From Acidimicrobiia bacterium (lineage in GTDB: Bacteria > Actinomycetota > Acidimicrobiia > Spongiisociales > JAHEDJ01), in assembly GCA_029210695.1 (NCBI GenBank), contig JARGFH010000019.1, positions 1-62,655 on the forward strand: 62,655 nt of DNA. The letters run 5' to 3'. The notes below the pieces were generated by a model that saw only the letters and a list, made by a program, of their open reading frames with translations, ran no database searches and had not been told where the DNA came from. Both the position numbers and the translations under genes were made by a program. This document shows positions 28,663-59,456 of this stretch, one piece after another; within the stretch, counting starts at the first letter, position 1; every line of letters begins with the position of its first letter.

Positions 28663-29691
28663 TCAGCTGTTGCGGACCAGGGGGGCCACTTTCGTCCCGA
28701 GCAGTTCGATCGACCGCATGACCTGATGGTGAGGGAGTGTGCCGACGCTGATGTGCAGCATGAAGCGTTTGATTCCCAGCACGTCCCGCAGGTGGATGAT
28801 CTTTCGGGCCACCGTTTCAGGGTCGCCCAAAACCAACGAACCGCCCTCACCGCGCATGATGTCGTAGTGCTGGCGGGTCATCGCTCCCCACCCCCGTTCC
28901 CTGCCCAGCTGCGTCATCGCCACCGCGTAGGACGGATAGAACTCCTCTGCGGCTTGCTCGTTGTCGTCGGCGATGTAGCCGTGGGCATGGACGGCCAGTG
29001 GGGCGGCGGCCGGGTCGTACCCCGACTCGACCAGTGTCCTCCGGTGGAGGTCGGCAAATACGGCAAAGCGGGAGGGGTCCCCGCCGATGATGGCCAGCGC
29101 CACCGGCAATCCGAGCCGCCCGGCTCTGACGATGGAGGCCGGGGTGCCACCGACGGCGACCCAGATCGGCAGCTGTTCATGACGGGGGTAGATCGGCTGG
29201 TCGTCGAGCGGCGGCCGGAACTTGCCGGACCAGGTCACCCGCTCTCGGTCGCGAATCTGCAGCAGCAAGTCGAGCTTCTCGGCGAAGAGTTCGTCGTAGT
29301 CGGAGAGTGAGTAGCCAAAGATCGGGAACGACTCGATGAACGAACCCCGGCCGACCAGCAGTTCGGCTCGCCCGTTCGACACGAGGTCGAGGGTGGCGAA
29401 GTCCTGGTAGGTGCGCACCGGGTCGGCCGACGAGAGGATGATCACCGCCGGGGTCAGCCGGATCTTGCTGGTCCTCCCGGCGGCGGCCGCCAGGACGATG
29501 GCCGGGGCCGAAGCGGCGAAATCCTGCCGGTGGTGCTCGCCGATGCCGTAGACGTCCAGTCCGACCTGTTCGGCCAGTTCGATCTCCTCGAGGACTTGCC
29601 GGAGCCGGTCGCCATGGCTGATGGTCGTTCCCGTCTCCGGGTCCGGGTACGTCTCTGCGAAGGTGGTGAGGCCGAGTTCCATTGGCGGCAT
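28663..29691 (-). CDS. LLM-class flavin-dependent oxidoreductase
   Basis: 342 aa TIM-barrel luciferase-like monooxygenase. The family elements are ELGLTTFAETYPDP, GEHHRQDFAASAP, TSKIRLTPAVIILSSADPVRTYQDFATLDLVSNGR and PIWVAVGGTPAS. It presumably uses reduced FMN or F420; the sequence does not decide. An internal ATG at 29682 is an alternative start. It appears monocistronic and is followed by palindromic repeat copy B. Confidence 0.87.
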   Translation of the reverse strand: MPPMELGLTTFAETYPDPETGTTISHGDRLRQVLEEIELAEQVGLDVYGIGEHHRQDFAASAPAIVLAAAAGRTSKIRLTPAVIILSSADPVRTYQDFATLDLVSNGRAELLVGRGSFIESFPIFGYSLSDYDELFAEKLDLLLQIRDRERVTWSGKFRPPLDDQPIYPRHEQLPIWVAVGGTPASIVRAGRLGLPVALAIIGGDPSRFAVFADLHRRTLVESGYDPAAAPLAVHAHGYIADDNEQAAEEFYPSYAVAMTQLGRERGWGAMTRQHYDIMRGEGGSLVLGDPETVARKIIHLRDVLGIKRFMLHISVGTLPHHQVMRSIELLGTKVAPLVRNS

Positions 29692-30179: not shown

Positions 30180-31178
30180 TCAGCCCTTCTCATCGGTCTG
30201 CAGCGCCAGCAGACGCTCCAGGTCTCCGTGCAATTCCAACCCGGCATTGCGACCGGTGCCGGCGAAGATCACCGATCCCGCCTCATTGGTGAGGTTGACC
30301 GTCACGCGGGACAGCATCGTTTCTCCAACCCGGTCGCTCATGTCGGTGCGAGTCGGCCCGTACAGCAGGCCGCCGGATGCGCGATCGGCTCGAATGGTGA
30401 GCCGTTTGATCCGGTCGGCGACCGTCCACTCGACGGTCTCATCGGTGAAGTGCAGGTCGACGGTCTTGGCCCCCGTGTAGGTGGCGAACTGGTGCAGCAC
30501 ACCTTCGTGGTGGAGTCCGATGATGAATCCGGGAAACGCCGAAAACAGCCAGGGGATGATGGCGATAGATCCCACGAAGCTGGTCCCCGGTTGCTCGAAG
30601 TGGTTGGACTGCATCCACACGTATCCGGCCGGGAACGCCTTGCCCCAATCCTTCTCGCCGTACCCGCGTCCACCGTCGAAATCGATCGATCGGCCGTCGA
30701 TGGCAAGCGTGCCGGCCAGCGAATGGTCGAAACTCACCAGGCCGTGATTGCACTCCATGCGCGGTGCCCACCCGTAGGGGCCCATGATGCCGAGGCGCGT
30801 GAGACTCACCGGCCACGGACGGGGCGTTCCCAGGCGAACCTCACCCTTGACCACCCGGTCGCCGTCCGCGATGTCGAGCACTACGCCCTCGCTCGAAAAA
30901 CGGCTCGGACCGATCTCGACCTCGAACCGGTCGGTGGCCGCCCGGAATTCATCGGCCGGATAACGGTGGTAGGTCGCCTGGCCGGTCGTGCCGTCGAGGA
31001 TCTGGATGAAGGCGTGATGGCGGTCCGGATCCTTGCTGAGGAAGATGCCGGGAATCACCGCATAGCGGTGGGTCTCGGTGGCGTCGACCAGTTTGAAGTA
31101 CCAGCCTTCGAAGAAGGGCGGGCGCCGCCGGTGGCCGTGGTAGCGCTCGGGATGGAACAGGGTTGGGGAGAACGACAT
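30180..31178 (-). CDS. Tocopherol cyclase-like protein
   Basis: 332 aa. It begins LFHPERYHG...FFEGWYFKLVD and later has the family block GRGYGEKDWGKAFPAGYVWMQSNHF, both characteristic of the tocopherol cyclase family. Tocopherol synthesis itself is unlikely here. Family members in actinomycetes are uncharacterised and probably bind a lipid or isoprenoid in the lipocalin-like barrel. It is monocistronic, 106 bp from the giant cyclase gene. Confidence 0.82.
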   Translation of the reverse strand: MSFSPTLFHPERYHGHRRRPPFFEGWYFKLVDATETHRYAVIPGIFLSKDPDRHHAFIQILDGTTGQATYHRYPADEFRAATDRFEVEIGPSRFSSEGVVLDIADGDRVVKGEVRLGTPRPWPVSLTRLGIMGPYGWAPRMECNHGLVSFDHSLAGTLAIDGRSIDFDGGRGYGEKDWGKAFPAGYVWMQSNHFEQPGTSFVGSIAIIPWLFSAFPGFIIGLHHEGVLHQFATYTGAKTVDLHFTDETVEWTVADRIKRLTIRADRASGGLLYGPTRTDMSDRVGETMLSRVTVNLTNEAGSVIFAGTGRNAGLELHGDLERLLALQTDEKG

Positions 31179-31283: not shown

Positions 31284-34200
31284 CTAGGCAAGCGGAATGT
31301 CTGGGGTGCGGACGATGCCCATCCGCCGGAACGCGGCGATGGCGGCGTCGGCATGATCCTGATCGTGGCTCACATAGGCAAGTGCCTGGCGGGTGAGGGC
31401 CTCTTCATACGGCGCCTCGGCCTCATTCGCTTTCTCCAGGCTGGTCCGGAACGCCGACTCGGCCTCGGTCCGTTCCGCCTGCTGCCAGTGTGCGTAGCCG
31501 AGGATCCGGTAGAGGGCTGCTTCGAGAATGGCCACGCCGACGGTATCCCCAGCAATCGCCAGGAGCTCCCGGGTCCTTGTTTCCACTCCGGCATCGCCGG
31601 TCATGAGGAGGTTCTCCGCTCTTCGTACCTCGGTTTCGAGCACGAAGGCGGCCGCTCCGATCGCCTGGAATCCGTCCACCGCCTCCGCCAGCCATTTCTC
31701 GGCCTCGTCGTGGTTCTTCGATCGGGCCTCGACCCGGCCCAGGTTGGAGGAGGCGAGGGCGATCCCGACTCCGTAGCGGGCGCCCTGCCAGATCCGCAGA
31801 GCCTCGGTGAAGCAGCGGCGGGCGTCGTCCCACCTGCCTTGATCCGAATAGATCTCGCCCAGGTTGTTCGTCTGGGTGGCGGCCCCGACGATGTCGCCGC
31901 ACGTCTCCCTGGCTTCCTTGCTCTGCGTCCAGTATTCGAGTGCCTGATCCCATTCACCGCGGTAGTAGGAGTTCATCCCGAGGTTGTTGAGCACGTTGGC
32001 CCGCCCGATCAGATCACGGACCTCGTCGAAGGCGGCCAGTGCTCGCCGGCCTTCCTCCTCGCTTCTGGGATCGGCCAGATGGGCGTAGGCGATACAGAGG
32101 AGGTAACGGGCGTGGGCTTCCTTGTCTGGGGGAAGACCCGGCAAGTCGAGGGCTTGATGACAGCGGCGGACGCAATGGTGATAGTGCCCCTGGCGATACC
32201 GTACGCCGGCGTAGGCCAGGATCAGTTCTGCCATCTCGGCGGTGACCGCCGGCCCCGGGGTGGCCGCCTCAAGGTTCCGCATGCCCCGGGTCAGCCAGCG
32301 CAACGCCACGCTGTAGTTGCCGCTCCGTTCCCGGAGCAGACCCTGCCGGCCCAGGATTCGTCCCTGCACGACCCGGTCATTGGGGATTCGCTTCCTCGTC
32401 GCCGCAAAGGCGTCGTCGGCCTCGTCGTAGAGGCCGGCCAGTTCTGAAGCCGTCCCGAGCGCCTCCGAGACTCTCGCCAACTCGGAGACCGCCAGTCCCT
32501 CGACCCGACGGGCCGAGTCGAGCGCCTGCCGGTAGAGACCGGCTGCGTCGACGTGGGCATAATCCTCGCTGGCGTTGTCGCCTGCGATCACCGAGTATCG
32601 CCACGCCCTGGTGTGTTCCCCGGCCAGCGCGAAATGGCGAGAGAGGAGTTCGGCGCTTTCCTCTCCGAAGCGCTGCTCGAGCACTTCACCGACTCGCAGA
32701 TGCAGTTCCGCACGCAGGTGGAACGGCAAGCCTGCGTAGGCGACGTCCTGAAAGAGATTCTGTCGGAATCGAACGTCGCCGTCCCGAGTCGTCTCGACGT
32801 ACTCGGCCAGCTGCTGCCAGATGTCCGCTCGTCCGGCCTCCGGAACAGCATCTCCGATGCTGGCGGTGAGGATCCCGGGTTCGAACTGCCTACCGAGGAC
32901 AGAGGCATAGCGCAGCACCTTGCGGATGCCGGGTTCGAGCCGATCGATGCGAGCGTTGATGAGATCCTCGACGTTGGCCGGCAGCTCACCGCCTTCGATC
33001 GCCGCTTCAACGAGGCTGATCAAGAACATGGGACTGCCCCCCGATCGCTCCACGGCTTCCACCAGCCGGTGATGCGGTACCGGGCGATCCGCCGCCACGG
33101 CTCTGGCCAGTTCGAGGCCTTCGTCTGACGAGAGGGCGCCGAGTTCTATCCGCACGGCGGGTGAGTCGTCGCCTTCCGGAAGAGACCGCCCGGCCAGGCA
33201 GATAAGCCAGGGGAACTGATCGTTGGCGGCCAGCTCGATTGTCTCCCGGGAGCTGTCGTCGAGCCACTGGGCGTTGTCGAACACGATGGCAGCCGGGGCG
33301 GGGAGCAGGGCGGCGAGCAGCTCCAAAGCTGCCTGCTGGGTCCGTTCCTTGCGGAAGCGATTATCAAGCGAGTTCGCCTCGGGGGTCTCGGCAACGGTGG
33401 CTGCTATTGGAATGGCGACGAGCGGCAGCCACGGCAAGAGATCGGGGGCTTTGCTGGCGACACCGTCGCGCAGAGCGGTGCCGGCCGAGTGCGTGTCTGC
33501 GTCGTCGGAGATGCCGAGGAGGCTCCGCAGCAGCGTCCTGAGTGAGAAGTAGGGGGTCGATGCTTCGTAGCGTTCACACCCGACCTTGAACCACGCGCCC
33601 GGATCGGTGCGGGAGCGGGCCTCGCCGAGCAGGCGCGACTTGCCGACACCGGCCGGCCCGACGATCTCGAGCAGCCGGGCACCGCTCGCCGCCGCCTCGA
33701 ATTCCGCGATCACCTCTTCCAGCGGTTCGAGGCGGCCGGCGAAGGGGAGTTCGGTTCTGGTCTCGAGTTCGCGGGTGCCGCGGATCGGCCCGACCGCGAC
33801 TGCCTTGACCGGGGCCGCCTTTCCCTTGACCAGAAACGGCTCTACCGGTTCGGTGTTGAAAAGCGTTTCGGATCGTTCCAGAACTCCGGTTTCGGCGAGG
33901 ATCTGACCGGGCTCTGCCCGCCCCATGATGCGGGCGGCGAGGTTGACGGCATCCCCGATGACCGTGTAGGCGGCCCGGGTTCTGCTGCCGACGTCACCGG
34001 CGAAGAGCGTCCCGGTGTTGACCCCGATCTTCAGCCGGAGGGGAGGACTCGCCTCAACGATGGAGCGCAGCGCCCGGAGGAGGCGTTCGGTGTCGTTGTC
34101 GGTGGTCGACGGAGCACCTGCGATGAGAATCACCTTCCCGCCGTCTGCGTCGATGTCCGAGGCGAAGAAGGTGACGCCGAACTCGTCTGCGGCTGCCTGA

Positions 34201-35018
34201 ATGATGCGCACCGTTCCGTCGAGGTCCTCCCAGACGGCGTCCAGGCCCCTGGCGGCGATCATCCCATCGAGGCCCTTGAACTTGAGGAAAGCTACGACCG
34301 CCCGGCGATGCTCGCCTTCCCCGGCCGGGGTCCCCACGACCGGGCGGAGGGCGGTCGGCTGAAAGCCACCCAGGTCGGTGTTGGTGGTGGTGACGGGCCG
34401 CTCCAGAGGCGGGGCGATCGGAGAGCGGATCAGGAGGTTGCGTCCATCCGAGGTCGTGTCGAGGAGGGCAGCGTCCAAGAGCGTGCCGGCAGCCCTGCTG
34501 ACCACAATCTCGCCGGCCGCGGCGCTGCTCTCCGCATTGACGGTGGCAGAAGCATCGGGCCCAGCGACGATGAGTTCACGATGGCGGTCGCCGACCAGGA
34601 ACAGGTCGAAGCAACCGGTGTGCACGCCGACGGTCATGTTGAGGACGACCCGGCCGGTGCCGGTGTCGATCCTTCCGACCGTCTGCAGTCGCTGCTTCAT
34701 CTCGAAGGCGGCCGCCGCTCCCCGTTCGACGTCGTCGGGTCCGGTGAAAAGGAGCAGCAGTGCGTCGCCCCCGAACTTGAGCAGGTCGCCGCCCCGGCCG
34801 ATGGCGATGTCGAGCAGTTCAGAGAAGACGCTGGTGAGGGCCGCCGCCACCTCTTCGGAGCCCACCCGGCCCTTCTTGGCCAGGCGCTCGGAGAGTGCGG
34901 TGAATCCGGAGATGTCACAGAACACCATGGTGCCCGGCATGCATTGATGGCGGACACCATCGGGCCACGAAGAGAGCAAACGTGGCGTGTAGCGCTGGAA
35001 GTTCAGTGTCGCGACCAT
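31284..35018 (-). CDS. Soluble-adenylyl-cyclase-like protein: C1-C2-NTPase-TPR
   Basis: 1244 aa. The C1 cyclase domain (residues 25-200) has metal Asp35 in FCDISGFTALSE and KFGGD with Lys81 and Asp85. The C2 domain (235-410) lost those Asp residues (AFLKFKGLD) but keeps the transition-state pair Asn359/Arg363 in VIGDAVNLAARIM. C1 lacks that pair (PDASATVNAES). The two domains thus complement each other, as in metazoan tmAC and human sAC (ADCY10). A P-loop NTPase follows (GPAGVGKSRLL, 454-464) with IVFDNAQWLDDSS, then TPR repeats from about 870. The start has GAGGAACCCGG upstream. Confidence 0.9.
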   Translation of the reverse strand: MVATLNFQRYTPRLLSSWPDGVRHQCMPGTMVFCDISGFTALSERLAKKGRVGSEEVAAALTSVFSELLDIAIGRGGDLLKFGGDALLLLFTGPDDVERGAAAAFEMKQRLQTVGRIDTGTGRVVLNMTVGVHTGCFDLFLVGDRHRELIVAGPDASATVNAESSAAAGEIVVSRAAGTLLDAALLDTTSDGRNLLIRSPIAPPLERPVTTTNTDLGGFQPTALRPVVGTPAGEGEHRRAVVAFLKFKGLDGMIAARGLDAVWEDLDGTVRIIQAAADEFGVTFFASDIDADGGKVILIAGAPSTTDNDTERLLRALRSIVEASPPLRLKIGVNTGTLFAGDVGSRTRAAYTVIGDAVNLAARIMGRAEPGQILAETGVLERSETLFNTEPVEPFLVKGKAAPVKAVAVGPIRGTRELETRTELPFAGRLEPLEEVIAEFEAAASGARLLEIVGPAGVGKSRLLGEARSRTDPGAWFKVGCERYEASTPYFSLRTLLRSLLGISDDADTHSAGTALRDGVASKAPDLLPWLPLVAIPIAATVAETPEANSLDNRFRKERTQQAALELLAALLPAPAAIVFDNAQWLDDSSRETIELAANDQFPWLICLAGRSLPEGDDSPAVRIELGALSSDEGLELARAVAADRPVPHHRLVEAVERSGGSPMFLISLVEAAIEGGELPANVEDLINARIDRLEPGIRKVLRYASVLGRQFEPGILTASIGDAVPEAGRADIWQQLAEYVETTRDGDVRFRQNLFQDVAYAGLPFHLRAELHLRVGEVLEQRFGEESAELLSRHFALAGEHTRAWRYSVIAGDNASEDYAHVDAAGLYRQALDSARRVEGLAVSELARVSEALGTASELAGLYDEADDAFAATRKRIPNDRVVQGRILGRQGLLRERSGNYSVALRWLTRGMRNLEAATPGPAVTAEMAELILAYAGVRYRQGHYHHCVRRCHQALDLPGLPPDKEAHARYLLCIAYAHLADPRSEEEGRRALAAFDEVRDLIGRANVLNNLGMNSYYRGEWDQALEYWTQSKEARETCGDIVGAATQTNNLGEIYSDQGRWDDARRCFTEALRIWQGARYGVGIALASSNLGRVEARSKNHDEAEKWLAEAVDGFQAIGAAAFVLETEVRRAENLLMTGDAGVETRTRELLAIAGDTVGVAILEAALYRILGYAHWQQAERTEAESAFRTSLEKANEAEAPYEEALTRQALAYVSHDQDHADAAIAAFRRMGIVRTPDIPLA

Positions 35019-35156: not shown

Positions 35157-35558
35157 GTGCGGAGTACGGGAAATCGTTGGGCTTCGATCGGGATTTCGTT
35201 CCTAATGGTGGTCGGATTGTTGGCTGCGCCTTTGTCGCCGCTGGCGGACACTGCAGCTGAAGCGCAATTCTCGACCGAATTCACAGTTTGCGATATATGT
35301 GAATTCCCGACGATTCAAGCCGCGATCAACGCAGCCGATCCGGGCGACGTGATAACGGTCGATGAGGGCACATATGTTGAGAACCTCTCCATCACCAAGA
35401 ACATAACGATTGTCGGCTCCGGAGCGAGCTCGACCATCGTTGATGGATCGGGAGGAAGTTCGTCCAATGGAACGGTGAGCGTTCCAACAGGCCCAGGACT
35501 AGGTGTAAGCGTCGATGAGGCGTCGCTCGGCGAGCCCGTATTCGAGCTTCGAGCATAA
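35157..35558 (+). CDS. Truncated secreted beta-helix (pectate-lyase-fold) protein
   Basis: 133 aa. A signal peptide (ISFLMVVGLLAAPLSPLADTAAEAQ) is followed by the first rung of a parallel beta-helix: FPTIQAAINAADPGDVITVDEGTYVENLSITKNITIVG. The sequence then stops after only one or two repeats, whereas family members have hundreds of residues. It is less GC-rich than its surroundings and has TATAAA at 35129-35134. It is probably a 5' fragment left by a deletion; 35559-35696 contains no continuation. Confidence 0.6.
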   Translation: MRSTGNRWASIGISFLMVVGLLAAPLSPLADTAAEAQFSTEFTVCDICEFPTIQAAINAADPGDVITVDEGTYVENLSITKNITIVGSGASSTIVDGSGGSSSNGTVSVPTGPGLGVSVDEASLGEPVFELRA

Positions 35559-36920: not shown

Positions 36921-37220
36921 GAGTCTGGCCGGGTGGATCGCGGTGGAACGAGGGTCACAATGCAACGATAATCGCTGATGTATTGGGATCCCAGCGGCAC
37001 CGATTTGAGTGCTTCGGCGAGGGTTGGGAACGACTCAAGGGTCCTTGATCAGTTGCGGTCGGGGCGCAATCCCCATCGCAGGTCTGGAGTCCGCCGGACG
37101 GCACCTCCTCTGCATATCACGGGCTGCTGTGCCGGCTACCCGTGGTAGCGGGCATGCCCTTCCTGCTCTGGCGGGTGACACCGCTTGCTTTGCCCACTAG
37201 CGTGCCCGTCAGGAGGGGCC
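36921..37220. other. 300-bp gap with a short shared relic
   Basis: No complete gene is visible. On the minus strand a short open frame reads SFPTLAEALKSVPLGSQYIS and ends in a TGA that overlaps the thiolase ATG. The DNA at 37007-37034 matches 46496-46523 at 26 of 28 bases, and both copies read SFPTLAEAL, so this is probably a remnant of a gene family once present in both spacers. The right part holds the promoter region and AGGAGGGG ribosome site of the gene at 37221. Confidence 0.4.
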
Positions 37221-40200
37221 ATGACCTGTAGTAGCTGTGGTGCGGAGAACCGTCCCGGAGCCAAGTTCTGTTCGGAATGCGGCACGCCGCAGTCACAGGC
37301 GTGCGCGTCGTGTCAGTCGCCCCTCCAGCCATCGGACAAGTTCTGCGCCGAGTGCGGTACCCCGACCGGTGGAGACGTCCCGGCCACCATGGGTCCGGAT
37401 TCGGCAACCGTCGGGGATGCTGCGACGCCCGAGGAGCGCAGGTTCGTCTCGGCGCTCTTCGTCGACCTCGTCGGGTTCACCCCGCTCACCGCGTCGCGTG
37501 ATTCCGAAGAGGTGCGCCACATGCTCACGGTCTACTTCGACCGGGCCAGGGAGGTCGTCGACCGCTTCGGTGGCGAGATCGAGAAGTACATCGGCGACGC
37601 CGTGATGGCCGTGTGGGGAGCCCACACTGCCCATGAGGACGACGCCGAGCGGGCCGTGCGAGCTGCCCTCGAGCTTGTCGATGCTGTGCATGCAGTGGGG
37701 GAGGAGCTCAACCTCCCCGATCTCCGCGCCCGGGCCGGCGTGGTCTCGGGTGAGGCGGTCGTCGGCGGAGACGGCAACGCCTCCACGGGCCTCATCGTCG
37801 GCGACACCGTCAACACCGCCTCGCGGGTCCAGTCGGCTGCCGCGCCCGGCCAGGTGCTCGTCGGGCGATCGACCAAGGATCTCGCCAGCAAGTCGATCGA
37901 GTTCGAGTCGGCCGGCTCCCTCGACCTCAAAGGGAAGGAAGGGCCCGTCGAGGCGTTCCGAGCTGTGCGGGTCGTCGCCGGGGTTGGTGGGACTCGCCGA
38001 GCCGGCGGCCTTGTTTCTCCGTTCGTGGGACGGACGGATGAACTGCGCCTCCTCAAGGACAATCTGCATTCCGTGCAGCGGGACGGCATGCTGCGCATGG
38101 TCTCGATCGTCGGCCAGGGTGGAATCGGGAAGAGCCGCCTACTCGATGAGTTGTGGAGCTACGTCGATGGCCTCAACGATGACGTGTACTGGCACCACGG
38201 CCGTTCGCTCCCGTACGGGGAGAACGCCGGGTTCTGGGCGATCGGGGAGATGGTCCGTCAACGGTGCGGGATCACCGAGGGAGACGACGAGCACAAGACG
38301 CGGACCCGACTCCGCACCGCCCTCGCCGAACTGGTTCCCGACGCTGATGACCGGGCGTGGATGGAACCGAAGCTGGAGAACCTACTCGGCATCTCTGAGG
38401 CGGTCGCCGAACGGGCGGAACTCTTCGCCGCCTGGCGGATGCTCTTCACCAACGTCACGGCCCTCGGCCCCGTCGTGATGGCGTTCGAGGACCTCCACCG
38501 CGCCGACGATGGAATGCTGGAGTTCATCGAGGATCTCGTCGAGATCGCAGCATCCGAGCCGATCCTTGTCATCTCTCTTGCCCGCCCGACGCTGCTCGAA
38601 CGGCGAGCCGGGTGGGGATCAGGGCGGGCGAGCAGCGTAAGTCTCCACCTCGCCCCTCTTCCCCCGCCGACGATGGAGGAACTGTTGCGCGGGGTCGTTA
38701 ACGACGCACCCGCCAGCCTCGTCGACCAGCTCGTGGAGCGGTCTGGCGGGATTCCGCTCTATGCCGTCGAGATGATCCGCATGCTCATCGCTCGCGAGCT
38801 CATTCGCCCACTGGACGAGCATCGATACGAGATGGCGGGCGAAGTGGGGGGCGTGGATATCCCCGATTCCCTCAGCGGCCTCGTAGGCGCCCGCCTCGAC
38901 CAGTTCGGTTCAAGCGCGAGGGCTCTCATCGCCGACGCCGCCATCTTGGGACAATCGTTCCGGGCTGAGGCGCTGGCCTCGCTCCGCGACGACCCGGTGG
39001 AGGCGCTGGAAGAGCGACTGGCAGAACTCGTCCGCAAGGAGATCCTCACTCTCAACCGCGACCCGCGCTCGCCCGAACAAGGCCAGTACCAGTTCGTGCA
39101 GTCGATCATCCGCGAGGTCGCTCATGACCGGGTGAGTCGTGCCGATCGGGTGCGACTTCACCAGCAGGTGGCCGCCTTCTACGAGTCTCAGAACGAGCCG
39201 GAGATGACCGGGATCATCGCCAGCCACTACCTCGATGCCCTCGAGGCCGCCGGGGACGGTCCCGGTGTCGACGGCCTTCTGCCGCGGGTGATCGCGAGTC
39301 TTCTGAGTGCCGCAGACCGAGCCGATCTGCTCGGCTCCTACGGCCAGGTCGTCAATCTCTGCCTGCGGGGCGTCGATCTCGCCGGCGACCCGGCCTGGCG
39401 GGGCGAGTTGCTCACCAGGGCTGCCCGCGCCGCCCACTCTGCCCTGGACGAACGAGCCCGGGACCTCGCCCAGCAGGCGGTGGCGGAGTTCGATGTCGCC
39501 GACAGCCCGCTCGGCCGCGTGAAAGCGGCGGCCGTGCGCGCCAAGCTCCTCGACGACGTCGGGGAGTCGAACGATGCCTGGCCGCCGCTGTTGGAGGCAC
39601 TCGAGGCCGACCCGGGTGAGACCCCCGATCACGTGGTCGCAATGGCCGAGCTGGCTCGGGCATTCATGCTCGATGGTCAGCCCCAGGGAATGGACTGGAC
39701 CGAGCGAGCACTCGGTGTTGCCGAGGATCTCGACATGATCCCGACCATCGCCGAACTGTGGGCGACCAAAGGTGCCGGCCTGGGCACGTCGGGCCGCCTG
39801 CGTGAGGCGCGAGTTCTCCTCTCGGCTGCGCTCGATCTCTCCCGAGAACACCAGCTGAGCGCCACCAAGCGCCGTGTCACCGCCAACCTCAACTACATTT
39901 CGGGGGGTTCCGTTGACCCGTTCGTCGAGGAGCGGATCGAGGATGCTCGCCGTATCGGCGACCCTCGCCTGCTCCTGGAAGCGCTCATGTCCAAGGCTGG
40001 GCGTTGGCACATCACCCTCGACATGGATGAGTACTTCGAGGCGATGGCCGAGATGGAGACCATCCCGATGGATGCGGCAATGGCAGACCAGGTCGAGGAA
40101 GGACGGAACGAAGTCGACCTCCTGCGAGGAGATGTGGAGAGAACGGTCGCAGCCATCGAGGAGCGCTGGGCCTCGCAGGGAACGGGCGATCAGCAGACCC

Positions 40201-40703
40201 AGGCGAATCGCCAGGTGGCGAGAGCCACGCACGCCTTCTACCGGGGCGACCCGGTGTCTGCCGTCAGGCTGGCCATGGAGAGCGGCCATCGATCGCCGGT
40301 CGGTCACCAGTACAACTTTGCGATGGTTTTCGCTCTCCGGATGGTGGATGCAGAGACGCTTCGATCGATCCGCGACGCGGAGGCCGAGCTGCCCCGGCTA
40401 CGGGTCGCCATCCTCCGTGAGCACGGCTTCGAAGGAGCGCTGGCCGCGCTCGCGGGAGACGTAGCGGAGGCCGAGGCCCGTTTTGCGGCGGCCATCGAGA
40501 TCGGCGACGAGATTTGGGGACCGATCTACTGCGGGCTGGTGCGGGCGTCGACGCCGCTCTACCTCGGCGGTGATCACCCCCGGGCCAGGGAATGGGCAGG
40601 GGAGACGCGCGCCAAATGGGAGAAGGCAGGGTTGAAAACCCTGCTCGACGTCTACGCCGAGCCGTTCGCGCTGCTCGACACGGCGGCCGCCGAGACCGCG
40701 TAG
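37221..40703 (+). CDS. Double zinc ribbon - class III cyclase - AAA ATPase protein
   Basis: 1160 aa. Two zinc ribbons come first (CSSCGAENRPGAKFCSECG and CASCQSPLQPSDKFCAECG). One cyclase domain (about residues 75-250) keeps every key residue: metal Asp in LFVDLVGFT and GDAVM, the Lys in EKYIGD, and Asn/Arg in GDTVNTASRVQ. It is followed by a P-loop ATPase (GQGGIGKSRLL) with Walker-B-like MAFEDLHRADD and a long helical repeat region. It should be an active adenylate cyclase-like signal transducer. AGGAGGGG precedes the ATG. Confidence 0.9.
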   Translation: MTCSSCGAENRPGAKFCSECGTPQSQACASCQSPLQPSDKFCAECGTPTGGDVPATMGPDSATVGDAATPEERRFVSALFVDLVGFTPLTASRDSEEVRHMLTVYFDRAREVVDRFGGEIEKYIGDAVMAVWGAHTAHEDDAERAVRAALELVDAVHAVGEELNLPDLRARAGVVSGEAVVGGDGNASTGLIVGDTVNTASRVQSAAAPGQVLVGRSTKDLASKSIEFESAGSLDLKGKEGPVEAFRAVRVVAGVGGTRRAGGLVSPFVGRTDELRLLKDNLHSVQRDGMLRMVSIVGQGGIGKSRLLDELWSYVDGLNDDVYWHHGRSLPYGENAGFWAIGEMVRQRCGITEGDDEHKTRTRLRTALAELVPDADDRAWMEPKLENLLGISEAVAERAELFAAWRMLFTNVTALGPVVMAFEDLHRADDGMLEFIEDLVEIAASEPILVISLARPTLLERRAGWGSGRASSVSLHLAPLPPPTMEELLRGVVNDAPASLVDQLVERSGGIPLYAVEMIRMLIARELIRPLDEHRYEMAGEVGGVDIPDSLSGLVGARLDQFGSSARALIADAAILGQSFRAEALASLRDDPVEALEERLAELVRKEILTLNRDPRSPEQGQYQFVQSIIREVAHDRVSRADRVRLHQQVAAFYESQNEPEMTGIIASHYLDALEAAGDGPGVDGLLPRVIASLLSAADRADLLGSYGQVVNLCLRGVDLAGDPAWRGELLTRAARAAHSALDERARDLAQQAVAEFDVADSPLGRVKAAAVRAKLLDDVGESNDAWPPLLEALEADPGETPDHVVAMAELARAFMLDGQPQGMDWTERALGVAEDLDMIPTIAELWATKGAGLGTSGRLREARVLLSAALDLSREHQLSATKRRVTANLNYISGGSVDPFVEERIEDARRIGDPRLLLEALMSKAGRWHITLDMDEYFEAMAEMETIPMDAAMADQVEEGRNEVDLLRGDVERTVAAIEERWASQGTGDQQTQANRQVARATHAFYRGDPVSAVRLAMESGHRSPVGHQYNFAMVFALRMVDAETLRSIRDAEAELPRLRVAILREHGFEGALAALAGDVAEAEARFAAAIEIGDEIWGPIYCGLVRASTPLYLGGDHPRAREWAGETRAKWEKAGLKTLLDVYAEPFALLDTAAAETA

Positions 40704-58271: not shown

Positions 58272-59456
58272 TCAGGGTGCCGTTTCGATTTTGAAGGCGG
58301 GCACGGGTTGGCTGAACCCTTTCAGCTCGAGTGGCCCAATCTCCAACGTCTCCTCGACGTCGGTGGCGCCGGCTCGAGTTCGCTGGCTCAGGAGTATCGT
58401 TCCGGCCGCGGCCTCGCCGCAGAGTCGCGCCGCCAGGTTGACGACGCTGCCGATTGCCCCGTAGTGGAAACGGTCCTCGAACCCGATGCGGCCTAGGGTC
58501 GCGAACCCGGTAGCGATCCCGACACCAAGTCCAAGATCGTGGCCGCTCCGCTGCCACTCCTCCGAAAGAGGCAGGAAGGCGCTTTGCATTCTGCGGGCCA
58601 TGGCAATGGCACGGTCGATGTGATCTTCCATTGGCTCCGGGTCGTTGAAGTACACCATGAGTCCGTCTCCGGCGAAGTCGCTCAGAGTGCCGCCGGCCTC
58701 GACTATCAGGCGTCCCATGTGTTCGTGGTAGTCGGCCAGAACGCCGATCACTTCCTCCGGTTCCGCCGTCGACGAAAACGCGGTGAAACCTCTGAGATCA
58801 CAGAACACGACGGTGATGTCGCGCCGGTGGCCGGCCAGGAGTTCTTCGTTGTCCGACGACGTGAGAAGATCGGCAACCTGGCTCGGGAGATAGCGAGCTA
58901 GTTCTCTTCGCTGGCGTTCGACGGTCGCCACCAGGCGGCTTGTCTCAAATGCAAGCGAGGCTTGATCTGCAAACACGGAGACGAGTTCGATCTCCGCATC
59001 ATCGAAAGGTTGCAGTTCGCTCCTCCAGACCGAAACGACTCCGACGACGTCGTTGTCGAGCAACATCGGGACCGACAACAGCGACCTGAACCCGCCCAGT
59101 CTCTGCGCCTCCCAGTATTCGTACTCGACATCCTCGAAAATGTCCGGAATGTGAACAGCTCGACGCTCGATAACGGTGCGACCGGTGATGGTGCCCCGAG
59201 TGGGGTGTATGGGATTGGCGATGTTGAAGTCCACGACTTCCGGGGGTGCACCCCGGTCGACCCTATGTCGGTAGACGTCACCGTCGCGGAGGTAGACGAA
59301 ACCTTTATCGGCCCGGCACAACCGAACTGCATGGTCGAGGATCGTCTGCAGGGTGGCATCGAGGTCGGCAGGAGCTCGAATGATCACTCGGAGCACATCT
59401 GCCACAGCGCTGCGCTCGCCTGTCGTTCCGGCCCCGGTTGGATCCGTCTCGGTCAT
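58272..59456 (-). CDS. GAF - class III nucleotide cyclase
   Basis: 394 aa. The GAF domain (residues 25-175: LDHAVRLCRADKGFVYLRDGD, SLLSVPMLLDNDVVGVVSVW) is joined by a short linker to a cyclase domain with both metal Asp residues (VFCDLRGFT, FAGDGLM) and Asn/Arg (VVNLAARL). The usual purine-selecting Lys is replaced by Asp (SDFAGD for KFIGD) and its Asp partner by Ser (IGSVVN for IGDAVN). It may therefore not be a standard adenylate cyclase. It is monocistronic and soluble. Confidence 0.88.
   Translation of the reverse strand: MTETDPTGAGTTGERSAVADVLRVIIRAPADLDATLQTILDHAVRLCRADKGFVYLRDGDVYRHRVDRGAPPEVVDFNIANPIHPTRGTITGRTVIERRAVHIPDIFEDVEYEYWEAQRLGGFRSLLSVPMLLDNDVVGVVSVWRSELQPFDDAEIELVSVFADQASLAFETSRLVATVERQRRELARYLPSQVADLLTSSDNEELLAGHRRDITVVFCDLRGFTAFSSTAEPEEVIGVLADYHEHMGRLIVEAGGTLSDFAGDGLMVYFNDPEPMEDHIDRAIAMARRMQSAFLPLSEEWQRSGHDLGLGVGIATGFATLGRIGFEDRFHYGAIGSVVNLAARLCGEAAAGTILLSQRTRAGATDVEETLEIGPLELKGFSQPVPAFKIETAP

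Follow-up and report, generated by a model that had tools for sequence, protein, structure and literature searches.

A tandem cyclase of the soluble adenylyl cyclase type, with a predicted single split active site, in an Acidimicrobiia bacterium

The stretch of DNA analyzed here, which we call the window, is the 62,655-nucleotide contig 19 (JARGFH010000019.1) of a 3.9 Mb, 181-contig assembly of an Acidimicrobiia bacterium (GCA_029210695.1), and our subject is a minus-strand gene within it (31284-35018) encoding a protein of 1244 residues that resembles human soluble adenylyl cyclase (sAC, ADCY10) in its domain order. The frame is open from an ATG start, and the plus strand over the same interval is not open. 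Pfam finds Guanylate_cyc in two stretches of the protein (C1 and C2), AAA_16 at residues 426-599, tetratricopeptide repeats (TPRs) and a MalT-like TPR match, confirming the order C1-C2-NTPase-TPR given in a preliminary description of this DNA that had been made from the sequence alone. Homologues align with the protein across its full length at 30-65% identity, all ten that were scanned have the same architecture, and the two nearest (63-65%) come from genomes of the host's own order. Nine places in the host genome carry a Pfam-detected cyclase domain, two of them belonging to the tandem protein, which is the only one of the C1-C2 tandem type that this genome encodes. The TOMM kinase/cyclase model (TIGR03903) gives the protein 125 bits, far under its cut-off of 706, and membership of that family was rejected.

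The two cyclase domains divide the catalytic residues between them. When 107 distinct tandem sequences are aligned with human sAC (the sequence used being identical to PDB entries 4clf and 4oya across 469 residues), Asp35 and Asp85 of C1 pair with sAC Asp47 and Asp99, Asn359 and Arg363 of C2 pair with Asn412 and Arg416, and each of the four is invariant in 107 of 107 homologues. The C2 counterparts of the two metal-binding aspartates are Lys246 and Lys295; aspartate occurs at neither (0/107), and position 295 is lysine in 98/107. The C1 counterparts of the asparagine and arginine are Ser157 (Asn in 1/107) and Asn161 (Arg in 13/107). This split is far beyond chance, and since C2 lacks the metal aspartates and C1 the asparagine and arginine, only one complete site can form. 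The preliminary description had already read C1 as keeping the metal ligands and C2 as its converse; the alignment upholds this, and the residues it named (Asp35, Lys81, Asp85, Asn359 and Arg363) were all correctly numbered.

An AlphaFold2 (AF2) model of residues 1-424 (predicted local distance difference test, pLDDT, 87.6; predicted template modelling score, pTM, 0.89) places these halves opposite each other. Foldseek matches it against the PDB to human sAC with both domains at once (TM 0.78-0.83 by query length), and a VIA comparison with human sAC gives Z 39.9 and 2.7 Å over 390 residues spanning both domains, at 20% identity, the next matches being the C1-C2 pair of AC9 (Z 34.8), 6yii (Z 26.2) and single domains (about 22). 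Human sAC is also the best PDB match of the tandem protein, and the C1-C2 family profile scores it at 125 bits, against 100 for CyaB. The model therefore predicts that C1 and C2 sit relative to each other as in human sAC, with the C2 residues facing C1; this arrangement and the split residues bear out the earlier proposal of an intramolecular heterodimer with one competent site.

Table 1. Features of the tandem cyclase gene in window coordinates. Fractions refer to the 107-sequence family alignment, except those for the hairpin, which refer to the domains in the tree.
Feature	Position	Strand	Basis
Tandem cyclase, STAND-like NTPase and TPR protein, 1244 aa	31284..35018	-	Open frame, Pfam, full-length homologues
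Cyclase domain C1, aa 26-198, source of the metal Asp residues	34425..34943	-	Pfam PF00211 30-190; tree with human sAC C1, 100/100
Cyclase domain C2, aa 234-415, source of Thr352, Asn359 and Arg363	33774..34319	-	Tree with human sAC C2, 100/99
Asp35, metal ligand (sAC Asp47)	34914..34916	-	107/107
Lys81 (sAC Lys95, bicarbonate-site lysine)	34776..34778	-	Lys 94/107
Asp85, metal ligand (sAC Asp99)	34764..34766	-	107/107
Extended C2 beta2-beta3 hairpin, aa 283-300, +4 residues vs C1, single-domain cyclases and transmembrane cyclases	34119..34172	-	31/33 C2; 0 in C1 and single-domain cyclases; model strands
Ala286, sAC Lys334 position, lysine lost	34161..34163	-	Lys 1/107
Asp288, sAC Phe336 position, adenine pocket	34155..34157	-	Asp 104/107
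Lys295, C2 metal position of the dead site	34134..34136	-	Lys 98/107, Asp 0/107
Thr352 (sAC Thr405)	33963..33965	-	Thr 86/107
Asn359 (sAC Asn412)	33942..33944	-	107/107
Arg363 (sAC Arg416)	33930..33932	-	107/107
P-loop NTPase, AAA_16, aa 426-599	33222..33743	-	Pfam; Walker residues invariant in 10 homologues
C-terminal all-helical TPR superhelix, ~aa 766-1235	31314..32723	-	Pfam TPR_12, TPR_MalT; AF2 pLDDT 88

The resemblance to ADCY10 is one of descent. A tree of 83 domain sequences was built from the C1 and C2 of 33 tandem proteins including human sAC, from VC1 and IIC2 of transmembrane adenylyl cyclase (tmAC), and from P. aeruginosa CyaB and single-domain cyclases of the host genome and its relatives. 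All 33 C1 domains, that of human sAC among them, form one clade (support 100/100), all 33 C2 domains, again including the human one, form another (100/99), and the tmAC and single-domain cyclases are placed outside both. By this computation the tandem protein and the catalytic core of ADCY10 descend from the same tandem ancestor, and the simplest reading of the tree would be that one tandem arrangement predates the split of human sAC from the bacterial tandem proteins. Human sAC C2 clusters with other bacterial C2 domains (98/92), and the family of the window protein is therefore a cousin branch of sAC and not the closest one. That two ordinary cyclase domains had fused independently in the lineage of this protein was rejected because the C1 domains and the C2 domains of very different bacteria and of human sAC cluster by position. 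A tmAC-like origin was likewise rejected, as tmAC C1 and C2 pair together outside the tandem clades, and so was the identity of a CyaB1/CyaC-like single-domain cyclase-ATPase, given the two domains and their placement with sAC.

The C2 beta2-beta3 hairpin is an independent character that agrees with the tree on common ancestry. This stretch has 23 residues in 31 of the 33 C2 domains and 26 in the other two, as against 19 in all C1 domains and 18-19 in single-domain cyclases; in tmAC C2 the excess precedes the strand, and the hairpin itself has no extension. The model forms its strands from residues 283-290 and 293-300. In human sAC the corresponding extension, Met337-Gly341, obstructs the second site for nucleotide (PMC4506562). 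The preliminary description had likened the division of labor between C1 and C2 to that of both ADCY10 and the transmembrane cyclases, and had proposed alignment and a tree to separate ADCY10 from single-domain cyclase-ATPases. Both domains side with ADCY10; the sAC half of the likeness stands, and the tmAC half does not, since tmAC falls outside the clades and its hairpin is not extended.

A further line of evidence comes from the neighbors of this gene in other genomes. In the 501 kb that flank 80 family loci, a gene for a protein with a domain (CNB) binding cyclic nucleoside monophosphate (cNMP) lies near 12 of these loci (13 genes), where about 1.4 are expected from the ~2.7 such domains per Mb in family-bearing genomes of the order. 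A Poisson estimate at 3.0 per Mb gives p ~7e-8, which treats the loci as independent, as is true only in part, and the linkage emerged from the inspection of many neighbors and not from an independent set. The linked gene encodes a CNB-NTE-patatin phospholipase in L048, L049, L062, L066 (where the N-terminus is cut by the locus end), L091 and L112; the others are a sulfate permease-STAS-CNB (L057), a glutaminase-CNB (L113), an ABC exporter-CNB (L091), an MFS-CNB (L094), a CNB-histidine kinase (L052), a CNB alone (L081) and one unclassified gene (L064). In L057, L113, L052, L062, L091 and L112 it lies upstream on the same strand, in operon-like order. This linkage supports a cyclic nucleotide as the product. 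The host genome has seven places with a cNMP-binding domain, and on its contig C4 (L172 4460-8741) a CNB gene (463 residues), a metallo-beta-lactamase-fold gene and a CNB-NTE-patatin gene are clustered, the same set that flanks the tandem cyclase in relatives.

A metallo-beta-lactamase-fold gene often accompanies the linked patatin, the pair being found at L048 9725-12362, L049 9766-12478, L062 3154-5884 and L112 1652-4571, and the putative hydrolase might act on the signal as a phosphodiesterase. Near the family genes of L052, L053, L090, L106, L107, L117 and L118, large secreted proteins with Ig-like or cadherin-like repeats are encoded, though such repeats may be alike by chance. Cyclases with linked effectors also bring to mind Pycsar-like anti-phage defense, and PADLOC does return weak PycC matches for the cyclase and PycTIR and phospholipase-effector matches for the linked CNB-patatin. 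They are incomplete and low-scoring, as common cyclase and cNMP-binding domains alone would lead one to expect; other linked genes encode transporters, a glutaminase and a histidine kinase, not defense effectors, and no sign of a defense island was noticed. We regard a Pycsar-like system as highly improbable.

The C-terminal part of the protein, described here from Pfam and predicted secondary structure, begins with an NTPase in which Walker A (GPAGVGKS) and Walker B (VFDNAQW) are both intact, Gly459, Lys460 and Asp587 being invariant among ten full-length homologues; the rest of this half consists of helical repeats (AF2 pLDDT 88, pTM 0.70). In full-length human sAC a C-terminal STAND P-loop region is likewise predicted, and this form is about three-fold less active than the C1-C2 form; in a recent study neither a nucleotide nor a partner was found to act on the P-loop region (PMC12802110). 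By analogy, the NTPase-TPR half may gate the bacterial cyclase.

From the computed fold, the split residues, the ancestry shared with ADCY10 and the gene linkage in relatives we infer activity, product and gating as follows. We consider it highly likely that the window protein is a sAC-type class III nucleotidyl cyclase with a single split C1/C2 site under the gating of its NTPase-TPR half, and that its product, most likely cAMP, acts on cNMP-binding proteins. C1 and C2 of one chain would face each other, packed into an intramolecular pseudo-heterodimer, with Asp35 and Asp85 contributing the two-metal center of the active site and Thr352, Asn359 and Arg363 entering it from C2. The pseudo-symmetric second site would be dead, both of its metal aspartates being replaced and the C2 hairpin extending over it. 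The STAND-like NTPase and TPR half would most likely gate the active site through its nucleotide state and a TPR-bound partner, and the cyclic nucleotide would act on proteins with cyclic-nucleotide-binding domains, such as those encoded next door in several relatives. That the protein makes a cyclic nucleotide at one site of two unlike halves is very probable.

Several observations weigh against this interpretation. The branch of human sAC in the tree is long and its exact placement is unsure; the AF2 model of residues 1-424 was built from 12 sequences only; no cNMP-binding gene adjoins the tandem cyclase in the window; and two residues of the human base pocket are replaced, sAC Lys334 by Ala286 (Lys in 1/107) and Phe336 by Asp288 (Asp in 104/107). 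In addition, a cyclase-like protein among the structural relatives, 6yii, is described as binding ATP, and the fold by itself is therefore no proof of turnover. One may indeed imagine the protein as a pseudo-enzyme, in which C1-C2 would bind nucleotide as a sensor for the NTPase-TPR half and synthesize no cyclic nucleotide, much as the title of 6yii, a Pseudomonas tandem cyclase-like fold (Z 26), would suggest. We think this very unlikely: all four catalytic residues are kept in 107 of 107 sequences, for which mere binding has no need, and the linkage to cNMP-binding genes also speaks for synthesis.

With a working cyclase as the preferred reading, the identity of its substrate must be weighed separately. 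Nearly all bacterial members align with sAC through the hairpin without a gap (for example, INKVFMFDKGCSFLCVFGFP in sAC and INKLSIDEKGTSLVAALGLP in L158), and the pocket positions given here follow this register. The position of sAC Lys334 is one that we take to serve base recognition in class III cyclases; it varies among other bacterial sAC-like proteins too, and the pocket does not define the group. Of the human set Lys334/Phe336/Thr405, only the threonine is retained, as Thr352 (Thr in 86/107), and sAC Phe338, at the ribose, corresponds to Asp290 (66/107). Phe336 itself lines the adenine pocket of human sAC (PMC4506562). As judged from the alignment, the base pocket is rebuilt in a conserved manner relative to human sAC, and the substrate base is uncertain because Lys334 is lost and Phe336 replaced by Asp288. 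ATP is nevertheless the likely substrate on general grounds. The "adenylyl cyclase" of the preliminary description is thus sound as to a cyclase of the sAC type, and its "adenylyl" is unproven, the pocket differing from that of sAC.

The same mechanism with a pocket that selects GTP, giving cGMP, or another NTP seems to us rather unlikely. The aspartates that occupy the Phe336 position and often that of Phe338, together with the near absence of lysine at the Lys334 position, would fit such a change, and base specificity does switch within the sAC group, the sAC homologue of Dictyostelium being named a guanylyl cyclase in the title of Roelofs et al. (2001), as cited in PMC6660944. Against it, the threonine of the human pocket is retained, and the variability of the Lys334 position in other bacterial sAC-like proteins means that this position may not decide the base. 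The linked cNMP-binding domains, moreover, mostly read R-S-A-T/S-V, like E. coli CRP, and this suits cAMP.

The protein had also been proposed to be perhaps bicarbonate-sensitive. In human sAC the bicarbonate site consists of Lys95, the Val167 backbone and Arg176, and Arg176 binds and relays bicarbonate (PMC4506562). This site is incomplete in the window protein: Lys95 is kept as Lys81 (Lys in 94/107), and the Arg176 counterpart is Val160, with arginine in 0/107 of the family alignment. Lys81 is at the same time the ordinary class III lysine, and its presence therefore says little on bicarbonate. With Lys95 alone of the sAC site kept, the proposal finds no support, and we say unsupported and no more because bacterial bicarbonate-activated enzymes also lack the other site residues (PMC4506562). 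A strictly bicarbonate-stimulated sAC, which bicarbonate would switch on at the dead site via Lys81, is in our view unlikely given the loss of Arg176 in 107/107 sequences and the double role of the lysine, even though that lysine is widely conserved and matters for bicarbonate in the Anabaena enzyme, the other site residues being unconserved in bacteria (PMC4506562), and even though Chloroflexus relatives are activated by bicarbonate (PMC11006738). In one locus (L057 15-1565), a sulfate permease-STAS protein with a C-terminal cNMP-binding domain is encoded ~40 bp upstream of the family gene; SulP proteins include bicarbonate transporters, and a bicarbonate link is conceivable in this single case.

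The window holds two more cyclase genes. At 37185-40703 (+), 2.2 kb from the tandem gene, a protein of 1172 residues combines a double zinc ribbon, one cyclase domain and AAA_16; it is of the ordinary single-domain type, and similar proteins occur elsewhere in the host genome (G000 C1, C67). The third cyclase gene on this 62 kb contig, at 58272-59456 (-), encodes a GAF-cyclase protein of 394 residues. The interval between the tandem cyclase and a thiolase gene holds a possibly truncated gene (~35180-35558, +): its product begins like a secreted protein, the N-terminus being signal-like, continues into a pectinesterase/right-handed-helix-like stretch and stops after ~120 residues. Downstream of the tandem gene by ~100 bp, on the same strand, lies a gene for a tocopherol-cyclase-like protein (30180-31178, -), followed by one for a luciferase-like monooxygenase (28663-29691), in a possible operon that is not common to the nearest homologues.

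In an even draw of 296 genomes from the phylum, 26 have a family member at E <= 1e-40. The best 80 loci from genomes of named species are mostly from Acidimicrobiia and other Actinomycetota, with a few metagenome-assembled genomes labelled Pseudomonadota; other branches of tandem sAC-like proteins are represented on rhizobial, Microvirga and Leptospira plasmids. We tentatively suggest, as a possibility that we hold with some doubt, that this Actinomycetota branch, with its rebuilt pocket and STAND-TPR switch, is often paired in a cluster with a varying CNB effector (phospholipase, sulfate permease, ABC or MFS transporter, glutaminase or histidine kinase) and so would form a modular, locus-private cNMP pathway built on the tandem ancestor that it shares with human sAC. 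With that ancestry and the C1-C2-NTPase layout, the bacterial proteins offer a tractable system for asking how the C-terminal P-loop region regulates full-length human sAC, and candidate downstream effectors are encoded beside the cyclase in relatives. The conserved Asp288, in turn, is a direct handle on the choice of substrate base within the sAC group.

Bacterial relatives of sAC are not new in themselves. Chloroflexus cyclases, the subject of Kobayashi, Buck and Levin in 2004, reportedly carry two catalytic domains with C-terminal similarity to sAC. The title of that paper, as cited in PMC6660944 and PMC11006738, refers to bacterial sAC-like cyclases, and the domain order and split site of the window protein are therefore of an already known kind. 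Our literature search returned no description of the present branch or of a cNMP-effector linkage, which is weak evidence, most subscription papers being outside its coverage; what appears new is the large Actinomycetota branch, the conserved change of the pocket and the linkage to diverse cNMP-binding effectors. The Chloroflexus aurantiacus enzymes resemble the window protein by description, not by sequence, in being bacterial with two catalytic domains, and differ in that a bicarbonate response has been demonstrated for them (PMC11006738).

Closer comparisons can be drawn at the level of sequence. Single-domain cyclase-ATPases of the CyaB/CyaC type, such as that at 37185-40703 in the window, share the class III domain and AAA_16 but have one cyclase domain, must homodimerize, fall outside the tandem clades and lack the hairpin extension. 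The tandem proteins L166, L158 and L167-L170, from rhizobial and Leptospira plasmids and another Actinomycetota family, share the C1-C2 tandem, the four-residue hairpin extension and both clades; the C2 domains of L158, L166-L168, L170 and L025 differ in lying on the human sAC side (98/92), and L158 and L166 in retaining the INK lysine of sAC. Human ADCY10 has C1 and C2 in one chain, a single site with both aspartates from C1 and Thr/Asn/Arg from C2, an extended C2 hairpin over the dead site, the same tandem ancestor and, likened by domain type, a C-terminal P-loop STAND region. The window protein differs from it in its 20% identity, in having Ala286 and Asp288 for Lys334 and Phe336, in lacking Arg176, in carrying a conserved Lys295 at the dead metal site and in being shorter, at 1244 residues.

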